A stretch of 64,000 nt of DNA from an uncultured Bacteroidales bacterium. GTDB taxonomy: Bacteria; Bacteroidota; Bacteroidia; Bacteroidales; P3. The position numbers and the translations under genes were made by a program. The stretch lies in the NCBI GenBank assembly GCA_905233475.1, contig CAJOEN010000003.1, positions 1 through 64,000 on the forward strand. Direction: 5' to 3'. Of the stretch, positions 12,663 through 33,798 are shown piece by piece. Under the pieces are notes generated by a model, which worked only from the letters and a program-made list of their open reading frames with translations, had not been told where the DNA came from and made no database searches. Numbering within the stretch: the stretch's first letter is position 1; each line of letters begins with the position of its first letter.

Positions 12663-12721
12663 CATTCCTTCTGTTGCCTAATTTTTCAGAATAAAACATT
12701 CAACTGAATATTTTGCATTTT

Positions 12722-12780
12722 TACACCCTTTCGGGTATAATTTAATCCGAATTATAGAGATTTATACCCTATCGGGTATA
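12722..12780. promoter_or_regulatory. Downstream palindromic operator pair of the hip operon
   Basis: Two 18-bp palindromes of the form TATACCC-N4-GGGTATA: an imperfect one (TACACCC...) at 12722-12739 and a perfect one at 12763-12780. Their starts are 41 bp apart. They lie just beyond the 3' end of hipT. The same pair with the same 41-bp spacing and similar filler recurs upstream of hipB at 14392-14450, so the operon sits between direct repeats of about 59 bp. By analogy with HipB operators these are probable HipB sites. Confidence 0.65.
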
Positions 12781-12842: not shown

Positions 12843-13790
12843 TTACTGAAGCCTTTCCAGCATATTAGAGATGTAGCTAATATATTCCTTCTGAAGCTCT
12901 GCGGGTAGGAAAGATTGTCCGACAAACGTTTCCCACTTTGGAAACACCTTGGTATATTTCTTTATCATCCGTTCCACAACTACAGAATCAATTTCGGACC
13001 TTGCCATAGCTGCAACGAAATCGGACTTTTTTATGTTACTTTTCTTGCCGTTGAGGGTAAGTGCAAGTTCCTCTGTGTCCGACGGCATAGCCAATCGCAC
13101 AGCAAGCATATCGTATGCGGGGGAGAATTGCCACCTGTCGCCTGTGGGATTGTACAACGAAAAATTTTTCAAATGCATATCGGAGTTGCCCGTAAGCCAG
13201 CAAAACATCACCACTTCCCAATAGTTTACTATGTCGAGTTTCCCGACGTCTGAAAATTGAGCCACTGTTTTCGCCACCTGTTCGTAAGAGGAATGGTACT
13301 TATCCTCTGTCAAGCGTCCCGACAGCTGGCAGGCGTCTTCCATTGCAATTTTTAATCCATCTCGTGTCCGGTCGATACGGCGGGTAAGGTAGCACAGTTC
13401 GCCATCGGCCATGCGTGCCAGGGTATGAGGCACTACTTTGATACCTGCCAATTCGGCCAGATGCATGGTCAAGTCTTCGTTTTCGGGCAGATAGGGGTAT
13501 GCTTTTGCCTGAGGTTTAAGGATATAGTTTCCCGCCATTCCAACCAACGTCAGTCGGTCGGGCTCGTTGCGCTCTCCTTTGGCCAAATGCAACGAGAGTT
13601 TTGGCTGCACCCCCGTAATGGTGGTCTGACTTAAAACTAATTTGCGGGCCAAATCGTTGATGTTTTCGCGAGTGTAGGGTATCCGTGGCAAGCCCTTGGT
13701 GCCGAAAGCCTTCTTTATGCAGCCTGAATGATAGCCGTGTTCTTCCTGAGCAAGTTCCTTATAACAATACAAACAGCGTTCCATAGTCAT
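12843..13790 (-). CDS. hipT: HipT-like serine/threonine kinase toxin (HipA core and C-terminal domain)
   Basis: Toxin kinase of a three-gene HipBST-type system; the studied E. coli HipT phosphorylates tryptophanyl-tRNA synthetase, other HipA kinases target glutamyl-tRNA synthetase. The 315-aa protein lacks the HipA N-terminal subdomain, which is encoded separately next door. It opens with a zinc-ribbon-like CxxC...H..C block (residues 5-24), then shows TGVQPKLSL (about 59-67), the NYILKPQ nucleotide-binding Lys, the catalytic loop DMHLKNFSL and the metal-binding SPAYDM. The SQTTITG stretch before GVQPK is where HipT autophosphorylation serines lie. It overlaps hipS by 4 bp (ATGA). Target protein not predictable. 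Confidence 0.85.
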   Translation of the reverse strand: MTMERCLYCYKELAQEEHGYHSGCIKKAFGTKGLPRIPYTRENINDLARKLVLSQTTITGVQPKLSLHLAKGERNEPDRLTLVGMAGNYILKPQAKAYPYLPENEDLTMHLAELAGIKVVPHTLARMADGELCYLTRRIDRTRDGLKIAMEDACQLSGRLTEDKYHSSYEQVAKTVAQFSDVGKLDIVNYWEVVMFCWLTGNSDMHLKNFSLYNPTGDRWQFSPAYDMLAVRLAMPSDTEELALTLNGKKSNIKKSDFVAAMARSEIDSVVVERMIKKYTKVFPKWETFVGQSFLPAELQKEYISYISNMLERLQ

Positions 13791-14340: not shown

Positions 14341-14359
14341 CAATTTTTTTTTGCAATAT

Positions 14360-14450
14360 TACACCCTTTCGGGTATATTTATATATATTTTTACACCCTT
14401 TCGGGTATAATTTAATACAAAATATCGGGATTTATACCCGATAGGGTATA
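14360..14450. promoter_or_regulatory. Upstream operator array of the hip operon (three palindromes)
   Basis: Three 18-bp palindromes of TATACCC-N4-GGGTATA type at 14360-14377, 14392-14409 (both with TACACCC left arms) and 14433-14450 (perfect). The last two repeat the arrangement found after hipT at 12722-12780, with identical 41-bp spacing. Probable HipB binding sites; inferred from position and palindromy. Confidence 0.7.
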
Positions 14451-31087: not shown

Positions 31088-31285
31088 TCATGGTATTCTG
31101 TCAATGTTGTCGCGACGACAATAAACAAGTACTATGGGCAGCGATAGAATCGAGGGTACTATGATTGCGGAAATAGCTGTCCATATCCAGAACGAATGTC
31201 CGCGACTGTGAGCTATGTGTCCGCAAATTAGGGCTACCGCCAGTTGCACGACGACTACGGCAACAAGTATTATCACGTCTTCCAT
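31088..31285 (-). CDS. Small two-helix membrane protein
   Basis: A 65-aa protein with two membrane helices (VIILVAVVVVQLAVALICG and FWIWTAISAIIVPSILSLPIVLVY). I do not recognise a family. Its ATG overlaps the vsr stop by one base (TAATG), which suggests coupled translation with vsr. Function unknown. Confidence 0.55.
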   Translation of the reverse strand: MEDVIILVAVVVVQLAVALICGHIAHSRGHSFWIWTAISAIIVPSILSLPIVLVYCRRDNIDRIP

Positions 31286-31944
31286 TATCCTTGTTTTTTG
31301 TTTTGTATTTTTCCATAATCGGCGCTGTCCTCGGCGGCCTGTGGCAGTGCGTCGGGAGTGTCGGCGTTGTAGCTTCGCACTTTGGTTTTATGGATGTCGA
31401 GGAAATGCTGGTTGAGCAACAGCTCCACCTCGCGCATGGTATGCTCTATCTTTTTGGACGTAAGCTGGCACTCCCACACTACTATCACCTGCCAGCCGTT
31501 TTCGCTAAGAATCTGGTAGTTGCGGCGGTCGCGCTCCTGATTGCGCCGGATTTTGGCAACCCAGAAATCGCGGTTGGTGTGAGGTAGCTTGCAGCAAGGG
31601 GAATCCTCAATCCCATTAATCTCGATACGAAATGCATTGTTGTTTTTATCCTGCTCGCTGAAGCTCGCGAAATCTTGAAAATCTTGTGGATTAACTATTA
31701 ACTCTAAATTCTTAACTCTAAACTCAATTCCGTGTCCGTGCCAAAAACAGCCGTTTACGAAAATGGCGGTGCGGTATGGCCGCATAACAATGTCGGGACT
31801 GCCGGGGACACTCCTTACGTTGAGACGATAGCGGTAGCCATGACTCCACAGCCACTTGCGCACCTTGAGCTCTGGCTTGGTGTCCTTGCTACGTATCCGC
31901 GACATGCAGCGGTGGCGTTGGGATGGAGACATTGTGTCGGACAT
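31285..31944 (-). CDS. vsr: Very short patch repair (Vsr) endonuclease with an in-frame insert
   Basis: Vsr nicks DNA 5' of the T in T:G mismatches made by deamination of 5-methylcytosine. Conserved blocks are present: MSRIRSKDTKPELKVRKWLWSHGYRYRLN, PGSPDIVMRPYRTAIFVNGCFWHGH, then PHTNRDFWVAKIRRNQERDRRNYQ and WQVIVVWEC. Zinc ligands correspond to the Cys of GCFWHGH, its His, the Cys of SPCCKL and the Cys of WEC. At 219 aa it exceeds the usual ~150 aa: residues 72-114 (31603-31731) are an insert whose DNA looks like intergenic AT-rich repeat sequence. A C5 methyltransferase, its usual partner, lies 15 kb away. Confidence 0.88.
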   Translation of the reverse strand: MSDTMSPSQRHRCMSRIRSKDTKPELKVRKWLWSHGYRYRLNVRSVPGSPDIVMRPYRTAIFVNGCFWHGHGIEFRVKNLELIVNPQDFQDFASFSEQDKNNNAFRIEINGIEDSPCCKLPHTNRDFWVAKIRRNQERDRRNYQILSENGWQVIVVWECQLTSKKIEHTMREVELLLNQHFLDIHKTKVRSYNADTPDALPQAAEDSADYGKIQNKKQG

Positions 31945-32032
31945 GGTAGATTATAGTTTATAGTTTACAGTTTATGATTAATAGTTTGTTATTTAGAGTG
32001 TTATTGCTCGAAAACAGCAAAATAAATTGCAG

Positions 32033-32079
32033 ACTTTCGGGCTATAAGTCGGAAAAAATATGCATTTACGCCCAAAAGT
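32033..32079. repeat. Inverted repeat downstream of the AAA ATPase gene
   Basis: Arms ACTTTCGGGCTATAA (32033-32047) and TTTACGCCCAAAAGT (32065-32079), the second being the complement of ACTTTTGGGCGTAAA. A matching inverted repeat lies upstream of the gene at 33752-33798. Possible operator or end of a mobile unit. The rest of 31945-32168 holds nothing else I can support apart from ACTATCATAG at 32165-32174. Confidence 0.55.
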
Positions 32080-32168
32080 ATGCATAAAAAAAGAATGATA
32101 ATAGTCATCTTTTTTGCTGATAACGTGCGACATATAATGATTTAAGCATAATATAGCATTATTCACTA

Positions 32169-33614
32169 TCATAGTCTTGGACCGAACAAATCTTTTAAAG
32201 TAACAACATTTTGAAAGACATGGCTATGCTGGTTGTTTGCCAGGCCATAGGTAGTTACAAGCACGGGGTGAATTGCCATACTCACATTCTCGGCATCGCG
32301 GAAAGCTCTTGCACGTCGTTCGATGTCCTCGGCATCTTTCTTTTTCATGGTGTAGCGGCTGTCGTAGAATTTCATCTCGCACACATTAATCACCTTGTCG
32401 GCACGTTTGATTATGAGGTCTATTTGTGCCTTTTCCGCTGCATAGGACGGCGTTGTCCAAGAAAATACCGATGTTATAACTCCCGAAATGCCAAGTGCTT
32501 GCTCTATCTGCCGATGATGATTGAGGCAAAGTTGCTCGAAAGCAAGTCCCGCCCATGTGTCGTGACGGTGGGTGCCGATCTGATATTTCCAGAAAGGCTT
32601 GTCGTTGGGGGCGTTTTTGCGGATAAACCTAAAATAGAACAGCGTAAAGGGGTCGGTGAGTTGATACAGCGACAGGCGCTCCTTGTTGCCATAGCCGTTG
32701 TAACGACGGATGAAGTCGCAGTTTACGAGGTCGTCGAGGATAGTGGAGAAATGGCCGTTGTTGGCGAGTTTTGTGGCGTCGAGAATCTCCTGCCGTGTAA
32801 GTCCTTTGTTCTTCTTGGCCAACGCCTCCACAACCTTTATGTAGTTGTCCGATTTTTCGAAAAGAGAGGCATACAGAGCATCGAACTCGCCGGAAAGCCT
32901 GCCCTTGTCGGCGAAAAACATCTCATCGACATTTTGCGCAAGGCCCGCTCCTCGGCGCAGATTTTTGAGATAAAAAGGAATGCCGCCCATAACCATATAG
33001 CACTCAGCAATTTCCTTGTCGCTCATTGCAAGCCCGCGACTTGAAATATACTCCTTGCATTCTGCCAAAGAAAAGGGATGCAGGTACAGTTTCTGCGTAA
33101 CGCGATTGTGCAGTCCGCCTTTGTTCTTAAGTATCTTTCTTGTAATCCACGATGTGGCTGAGCCACAGATGATAAGCACTATGTCGGATTGCGTTCCGGC
33201 CCAATCGTTCCAGAAATGTTCGAGAGCGGAAACAAGATTGCCGCCACGGGAATCCATCCACGGAAGCTCGTCGATGAAAACCACTTTTTTGCCTTTCTTT
33301 TTACTGCTTTCCAACAGGCAACGCAAACTGTTGAAAGCCTCGTACCACGTGCGCGGCTTTGTGTATCGCTGTCCGCCGCCGTAGCGGTTGAGGGCATCGG
33401 TGAAATTGGACAGCTGTTCGCGCTTGCTCTTTTTTGCCAGCCCAGTAAGTTTGAAAGCAAAACGGTCGTTGAAATATTTGTTCACCAAAAAAGTCTTGCC
33501 TACTCTTCGACGTCCATACACTACGACAAACTCAGGCTCCCGCGACTCAACAATCTGATTGAGAAGCTCCTGTTCTTTTCCACGACCGACTAACATATCT
33601 GTTTTCTTAGCCAT
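32169..33614 (-). CDS. AAA ATPase with DUF234-type C-terminal domain (archaeal-type ATPase)
   Basis: A 481-aa P-loop ATPase: Walker A VVVYGRRRVGKTFLVNKYF near residue 30, Walker B-type VVFIDELPWMD, a winged-helix region (about 270-320), and a C-terminal restriction-endonuclease-like DUF234 domain (YAAEKAQIDLIIKRADKVINVCEMKFYDSRY, where D...E-x-K is a PD-(D/E)XK-like core). Genes of this family are frequent, patchily distributed accessory genes of Bacteroidota; role unknown, defence or regulation proposed. The ATG at 33614 is preferred because a -7 box at 33635-33642 would start the transcript downstream of the alternative ATG at 33632. Confidence 0.82.
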   Translation of the reverse strand: MAKKTDMLVGRGKEQELLNQIVESREPEFVVVYGRRRVGKTFLVNKYFNDRFAFKLTGLAKKSKREQLSNFTDALNRYGGGQRYTKPRTWYEAFNSLRCLLESSKKKGKKVVFIDELPWMDSRGGNLVSALEHFWNDWAGTQSDIVLIICGSATSWITRKILKNKGGLHNRVTQKLYLHPFSLAECKEYISSRGLAMSDKEIAECYMVMGGIPFYLKNLRRGAGLAQNVDEMFFADKGRLSGEFDALYASLFEKSDNYIKVVEALAKKNKGLTRQEILDATKLANNGHFSTILDDLVNCDFIRRYNGYGNKERLSLYQLTDPFTLFYFRFIRKNAPNDKPFWKYQIGTHRHDTWAGLAFEQLCLNHHRQIEQALGISGVITSVFSWTTPSYAAEKAQIDLIIKRADKVINVCEMKFYDSRYTMKKKDAEDIERRARAFRDAENVSMAIHPVLVTTYGLANNQHSHVFQNVVTLKDLFGPRL

Positions 33615-33634
33615 TTTTTCAGCTTTTTGCACTG

Positions 33635-33642
33635 CAAAGGTA
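33635..33642 (-). promoter_or_regulatory. -7 box of the AAA ATPase gene (TACCTTTG)
   Basis: Exact TAnnTTTG on the minus strand, 20 bp before the ATG at 33614. It decides that start over the one at 33632. Confidence 0.6.
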
Positions 33643-33751
33643 CGAAAAAAAGTTGAAAATTGAGATTTGAAAGCTGAAATTAGATATATATATTTATAAT
33701 TTAGATATTTACAATGGGTGATATGCTCAAAACAAGGGCAAAAAATTGCAT

Positions 33752-33798
33752 ACTTCAGGGCTATAACTCGATTTTTTTTTCGCTTTACGCCCTAAAGT
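33752..33798. repeat. Inverted repeat upstream of the AAA ATPase gene
   Basis: Arms ACTTCAGGGCTATAA (33752-33766) and TTTACGCCCTAAAGT (33784-33798), matching the pair at 32033-32079 in sequence, order and spacing. It lies about 110 bp upstream of the -7 box. Confidence 0.55.

Follow-up and report, generated by a model that had tools for sequence, protein, structure and literature searches.

An AAA+ ATPase gene in the 64,000-nt stretch of DNA analysed here (the window) lies between two direct copies of a palindrome, and we read gene and palindromes together as a single-gene mobile unit of ~1.6-1.8 kb. Taken whole, this is the best explanation of the data, and we give it a probability of roughly 55%. 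The palindromes are particular to each gene lineage, alike in orthologues and unlike in distant paralogues, and in many copies the gene is flanked left and right by the same palindrome in direct orientation. Moreover, units are present or absent between sister genomes, with a target duplication and a clean empty site at one well-resolved locus. The window features are as follows.

33752..33798, no strand (gene on the minus strand): upstream 47-bp palindrome, the same motif as found upstream of orthologues
33724..33751, no strand: 28-nt tail adjoining the upstream palindrome, matching 32005-32032
33635..33642, minus strand: likely promoter -7 box TACCTTTG, read from the sequence, between the upstream palindrome and the gene
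~32169..33614, minus strand: gene for an AAA+ ATPase with a predicted winged helix and PD-(D/E)XK nuclease, PDC-S27 family
32033..32079, no strand: downstream 47-bp palindrome, a direct copy of the upstream one
32005..32032, no strand: 28-nt tail adjoining the downstream palindrome, matching 33724-33751

The first-pass annotation had described inverted repeats at 32033-32079 and 33752-33798 with 15-nt arms and a 17-nt spacer, and both coordinates and sequence bear this out. The two loci are also direct copies, as it had claimed, in the same orientation and 1719 bp apart, and a common tail of ~28 nt lengthens the repeat on one side. Both are degenerate palindromes, with 11/15 outer arm positions complementary in each copy and 32/47 positions identical between the two 47-mers. 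Local alignment of flank against flank scored 39.0, versus a maximum of 16.5 in 100 shuffles. The concern that such arms might be common throughout the genome did not materialise: the pattern ACTTNNGGGC-N12-40-GCCCNNAAGT occurs at only these two sites in 2.3 Mb. With a spacing of N26-29 it was found in 2/393 genomes of the order, the window's own and, as a solo copy, genome G431. Single arms (up to 3 mismatches) occur within the window at about chance frequency; the significance of the repeats thus derives from their pairing and their conservation in relatives, not from single arms. Bacteroidota promoters have the consensus TAnnTTTG. With the likely promoter box situated after the upstream palindrome and ahead of the gene, that palindrome would act at the DNA level, if it acts at all. 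Outside the palindromes of the window copy we found no target duplication (score 10.5, null mean 12.0), and no empty site was found for it among the genomes compared, which include only 4 of its genus. The degenerate palindromes of the window copy, its absent target duplication and its lack of a known empty site count against the mobile-unit reading.

The ATPase gene is the sole gene between the palindromes, with no methyltransferase partner in the unit. Its listed ORF begins at GTG 33632; ATG 33614 agrees better with relatives. The product is a STAND/ORC-type AAA+ ATPase of the candidate defence family PDC-S27, matching PADLOC profile PDLC04984 (PDC-S27) over residues 5-475 of 479 (E=5e-198); the family's label as a candidate for defence counts against the mobile-unit reading. 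The earlier label was AAA/DUF234 ATPase; Pfam matched ATPase_2 (PF01637), and DUF234 itself found no match in Pfam, where only ATPase/AAA models were listed. No known transposase or recombinase domain was detected in the protein with Pfam or with NCBIfam, which gave a weak helix-turn-helix hit below cut-off, and a sequence search of the PDB returned no match. Over approximately residues 1-330, the predicted structure (pLDDT 91.1, pTM 0.89) matched the fold of SSO1545 (Z 19.8) and PABY2304 (Z 19.7), with STAND/NLR ATPases and ORC/Cdc6 (ORC Z about 14) next, in a comparison that covered residues 2-348 only; these fold matches suggest a winged helix. A separate model of the last 145 residues (pLDDT 92.2) matched McrC (E 9.7e-05) and AF1548 (E 3.5e-04) and, more weakly, MspJI, a Pyrococcus repair endonuclease and R2 endonucleases. 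Across the 200 proteins that were intact, out of 217 loci (exclusions being for short flanks, stops, truncation or duplication), Walker residues K38, D113 and E114 and predicted nuclease residues E358, D397, E411 and K413 were invariant to the nearest percent, and Q395 was conserved at 99%. The nuclease thus seems to be strongly selected, something not needed in a protein that acted as a DNA-binding regulator and nothing more. Just beyond the downstream palindrome, at 31285-31944, is a gene for a Vsr-type endonuclease (PF03852, E=1.8e-31).

Orthologues, where the first-pass annotation had proposed to look for the same flanking arms, often carry them. Exact matches to the arm pattern were present at 16/30 of the closest loci, nearly always over 47 nt, and on both sides in 7. 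Downstream copies were found at L048, L049, L050, L051, L057, L062, L067, L079 and L083, and further arm variants, GAGTT..AACTC or ACTTTGCAGCC..GGCTGCAAAGT for example, were identified by eye. Similarity of upstream flanks tracked protein identity: flank pairs scoring at least 20 made up 2/11 below 35% identity, 7-11% at 35-50%, 20-21% at 50-60%, 67% at 60-70%, 85% at 70-80% and 96% at 80-90%. Between units with 75-90% DNA identity, homology mostly ends near the palindromes; neighbouring genes are unlike in L048, L049 and L057, and flanks are common to the close relatives L049, L050, L051 and L079. The solo window-type palindrome of G431 (L122:1501-1546) occurs in a genome with no ATPase match; it adjoins a gene whose product resembles a Schlafen/AlbA_2-type ATP-binding protein. 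A scan of viral contigs for the arm pattern found 5 stretches, and no ATPase match turned up in the DNA examined there. Three divergent ATPase copies of different lineages (L049, L069, L083) lie upstream of what we take to be an EF-G-like gene (fusA), perhaps an insertion hotspot.

Five such ATPase genes are present in the window genome; of these paralogues, by eye, L007 and L009 have two-sided repeats of their own and L008 an upstream repeat only, and L010 has a 295-nt host duplication. Family matches numbered 44 in G546, 29 in G540 and 18 in G549, of which 29, 21 and 10 copies, respectively, were analysed, together with all 24 in G613 and all 23 in G614. With the same exclusions as for the 200 proteins, upstream palindromes scoring at least 12 were found at 111/166 loci, versus 1/166 shuffled sequences and 10/123 control ORFs; the downstream figures were 57/168, versus 0/168 and 14/123. 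Direct repeats spanned the gene at 49/107 loci, versus 5/162 control ORFs (7 of 114 loci had flanks too short for this comparison). The upstream flank of a gene scored far higher against its own downstream flank than against mismatched ones (41.9 versus 11.9 in G540, 43.4 versus 11.6 in G613 and 39.9 versus 12.1 in G614; 0/5000 permutations in each), and the own downstream flank was the best partner for 14/21, 17/24 and 16/23 genes, respectively. Matching was weaker in G546 (6/29; 0/5000), G549 (4/10; 2/5000) and the window genome (3/5; 75/5000). At most loci the downstream copy is absent, which counts against the mobile-unit reading: repeats across the gene were present at 5/29 loci in G546 and 4/10 in G549, and none was found in most of L100-L121. 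The units are too short to hold a second enzyme, the segment common to L209 and L260 extending from -106 to +125. Genes of another type, the DUF4143 ATPases (PDC-S01 type), gave 23 matches in the window genome and 48 in G540; in a set of 30 loci, 10 of them left out by an ORF filter, upstream flanks (L333, L337, L342, L344, L346) often displayed, by eye, locus-specific direct repeats of ~32-33 nt that are not palindromes.

Sister genomes were compared for the presence and absence of units. Four sister genomes contain 29, 24, 23 and 28 family matches; common copies are mostly 94-98% identical, and many copies are not common to all three sister genomes compared. Flanks of 17 loci, 5 in one set and 12 in another, were queried in sister genomes and yielded 4 single-palindrome scars, 2 clean empty sites, 1 internal deletion and 10 uninformative outcomes, the high share of which counts against the mobile-unit reading. 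At L201, L204 and L205, a single copy of the palindrome, within 64-79 nt, connects the two flanks where the gene is absent (L204 in G613, L201 in G613 and G614, L205 in G614). At L276, the gene is absent from G614, G540 and G615, and a tandem palindrome is left between target copies of ~36 nt. Empty sites with one copy, which the first-pass annotation had also suggested seeking, are thus found at L201, L204, L205 and L276, all of them paralogues and not the window copy. Loss of the gene would account for such scars, as would, with lower probability, insertion at a palindrome that was already there; direct repeats recombining in the ordinary way can produce them. Together with the orthologue arms, these sites lend support to the earlier suggestion that the repeats serve the protein as operators or form ends that make the gene mobile. 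Beside the L276 scar is a second, different ATPase gene of 434 aa (L389 and L390, in G614 and G540), or 423 aa as read in G615; at L389, L390 and L391 it lies between further copies of the L276 target, as if two families had used one target.

L259 is a well-resolved case of gain. Its unit is present in G614 between 37-nt duplicates, and both G540 and G613 retain a clean empty site; target duplication together with an empty site shows insertion. L254 also has a clean empty site in G540, with an overlap of only 14 nt. At L211, the gene was lost by ordinary internal deletion in which the palindrome played no role, a result that counts against the mobile-unit reading. No contiguous empty site was found in the sister genomes for L280, L285, L272, L275, L279, L207 or L266, and L260 and L209 (from the set of 5) and L282 (from the set of 12) were among the 10 uninformative loci. 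We had considered L209/L260 as a move to a new place and rejected it: the right flanks lie ~2.1 kb apart in the same region of G540, on one contig also in G613 and G615, and L209/L260 is one locus with rearranged flanks. Beyond the sister genomes, a unit occupies the merR-alaS intergenic region in one genome (L053). A merR search matched 55/60 genomes, and of the 19 relatives' loci read besides L053's own, none had an ATPase match on the stretch read, with merR and alaS adjacent in 13. A dispersed intergenic repeat of ~135 nt, present in many copies in G540, G613, G614 and G615, flanks some units (L260 on the left, L279).

Target duplications extend beyond these examples. Left and right flanks matched outside the palindromes (score at least 20) at 25/209 loci, versus 0.14% of mismatched pairs, in a set filtered like that of the 200 proteins; 7 of the 25 were discounted as palindromic or promoter repeats (L007, L070, L085-L087, L093, L285). 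Sizes range from ~30 nt to several hundred, including 36-37 nt at L276 and L259 and 295 nt at L010. Their length is variable, and part of them are found 30-40 nt beyond the palindromes, which counts against the mobile-unit reading; the palindromes therefore do not always mark the exact ends.

We propose that the AAA+/winged-helix protein probably recognises its own palindrome, binding it as two half-sites in duplex DNA, and that from the upstream site, beside the promoter, it probably also regulates itself. In this scheme the protein itself would move the unit: its nuclease would make breaks through which the unit gains entry to further sites, and target duplications of variable length, from ~36 bp up to several hundred, would result. 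Whenever the two palindromes recombined, the gene would be deleted and one palindrome would stay behind. Paralogues may have diverged because copies with a common recognition site would interfere with one another. A broader version holds PDC-S27 to be a self-mobilising class of one-gene elements, in which the ORC/STAND-type AAA+ nuclease is itself the mobility enzyme and the palindromes are orthogonal, gene-specific edges; this is possible, and we advance it tentatively. If true, thousands of "defence candidates" would have been counted as such because they are mobile, and one genome could hold dozens of mutually compatible elements.

The strongest rival takes the palindromes to be operators or self-recognition sites of a defence-type nuclease whose gene was moved passively, in the manner of restriction-modification (R-M) genes with their long, variable target duplications; downstream copies would be by-products or second regulatory sites, and scars the outcome of host recombination between direct repeats. 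The upstream palindrome is much more constant than the downstream one and adjoins the promoter, the arms act as independent half-sites, and the protein matches PDC-S27 over its full length, as this explanation would have it. In PDC-S01-type DUF4143 ATPases, too, locus-specific direct repeats are often seen upstream by eye. Insertion of R-M genes together with target duplications of great and varying length is reported in the accessible part of PMC3031569, which cites Nobusato et al. 2000. The same account leaves unexplained the near-identical, gene-specific downstream copies (14/21, 17/24 and 16/23 genes), and it could accommodate the solo palindrome of the gene-less genome G431 only as a relic. 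We regard operators combined with passive movement as somewhat doubtful.

That the palindromes function as hairpins in folded DNA or RNA, as terminators or as attC- or REP-like structures, is improbable. Many paralogues do have long, nearly perfect arms of the kind expected of a hairpin. Among 25 distinct 57-mers of the window's family (of 29 distinct matches), however, variable outer arm positions did not co-vary (paired in 10/25 versus 8.7 expected, 18 versus 18.8 and 11 versus 9.8), the exceptions being two inner positions that pair above expectation (P 0.026 and 0.004). With no such covariation in the outer part of the arms, these alignments fit recognition of two half-sites in duplex DNA better than a folded hairpin. 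The arms also contain free positions, and the upstream copy precedes the likely promoter and so is not part of the mRNA. Chance similarity in AT-rich intergenic DNA is scarcely credible as the origin of the window pair, whose copies are degenerate (32/47 identical) with single arms at chance frequency, but which occupies two genomic places only, aligns strongly between flanks and is kept in orthologues.

Origin boxes, repeated or inverted, are the binding sites of ORC/Cdc6 proteins, and the fold of residues 1-330 resembles that of ORC1/Cdc6 initiators and of the archaeal Walker-type ATPases SSO1545 and PABY2304; unlike all of these, the window protein has a C-terminal nuclease and has its sites around its own gene. 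Insertion sequences, RAYT/REP elements and integron cassettes are small units with palindromic or inverted edge sites, in which recombination between copies leaves one site. The mobile unit proposed here is like them in its small size, its palindromic edge sites and the recombination that leaves one site. It differs in that no known transposase or integrase domain was found in the protein, and in palindromes that are full direct copies, specific for each gene. Unlike in insertion sequences, the two ends are not mutually inverted, each palindrome being inverted within itself; the insertion-sequence trait of target duplication with an empty site is seen in paralogue L259 (37 nt) and not in the window copy.

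The accessible text of PMC12988326 counts PDC-S27 as one of the commoner defence-gene candidates in prokaryotes and describes a defence role for most such candidates as pending validation. The window protein resembles this PADLOC phage defence candidate in its full-length profile match and in the make-up of ATPase plus PD-(D/E)XK given there; no palindromes, unit boundaries, mobility or mechanism are described in that accessible text. Like R-M insertions, as presented in the accessible part of PMC3031569, the paralogues, though not the window copy, comprise a nuclease gene unit between variable, often long target copies. R-M units differ in that here there is no methyltransferase, the flanking palindromes are gene-specific and scars keep one palindrome. 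It is already known that the gene family is a candidate for defence and that genes can insert with a long duplication of their target. PDC-S27 is named in just two papers of the open literature searched. Gene-specific palindromes, the two-sided layout and palindrome scars at PDC-S27 genes were found nowhere in the open literature searched, a scope that excludes preprints, and the three features are absent from the accessible parts of PMC12988326, PMC13356809 and PMC3031569. A DNA site that is specific to its gene and legible directly in the sequence is now a proposed ligand for many divergent proteins, and through these palindromes specificity, regulation and mobility become directly testable. 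Mobility offers another reason why PDC-S27-type genes may sit among defence genes, and a one-gene unit makes accessible the kind of insertion, with long duplication of the target, that is known from R-M genes.

A second gene in the window also has flanking repeats. Direct copies of TTTTGCA.T.TTACACCCTTTCGGGTAT(A)ATTTA at 12711-12744 and 14349-14381 lie on both sides of minus-strand ORF 12843-13790, the gene that the first-pass annotation calls the hip operon and which we take to encode HipA.
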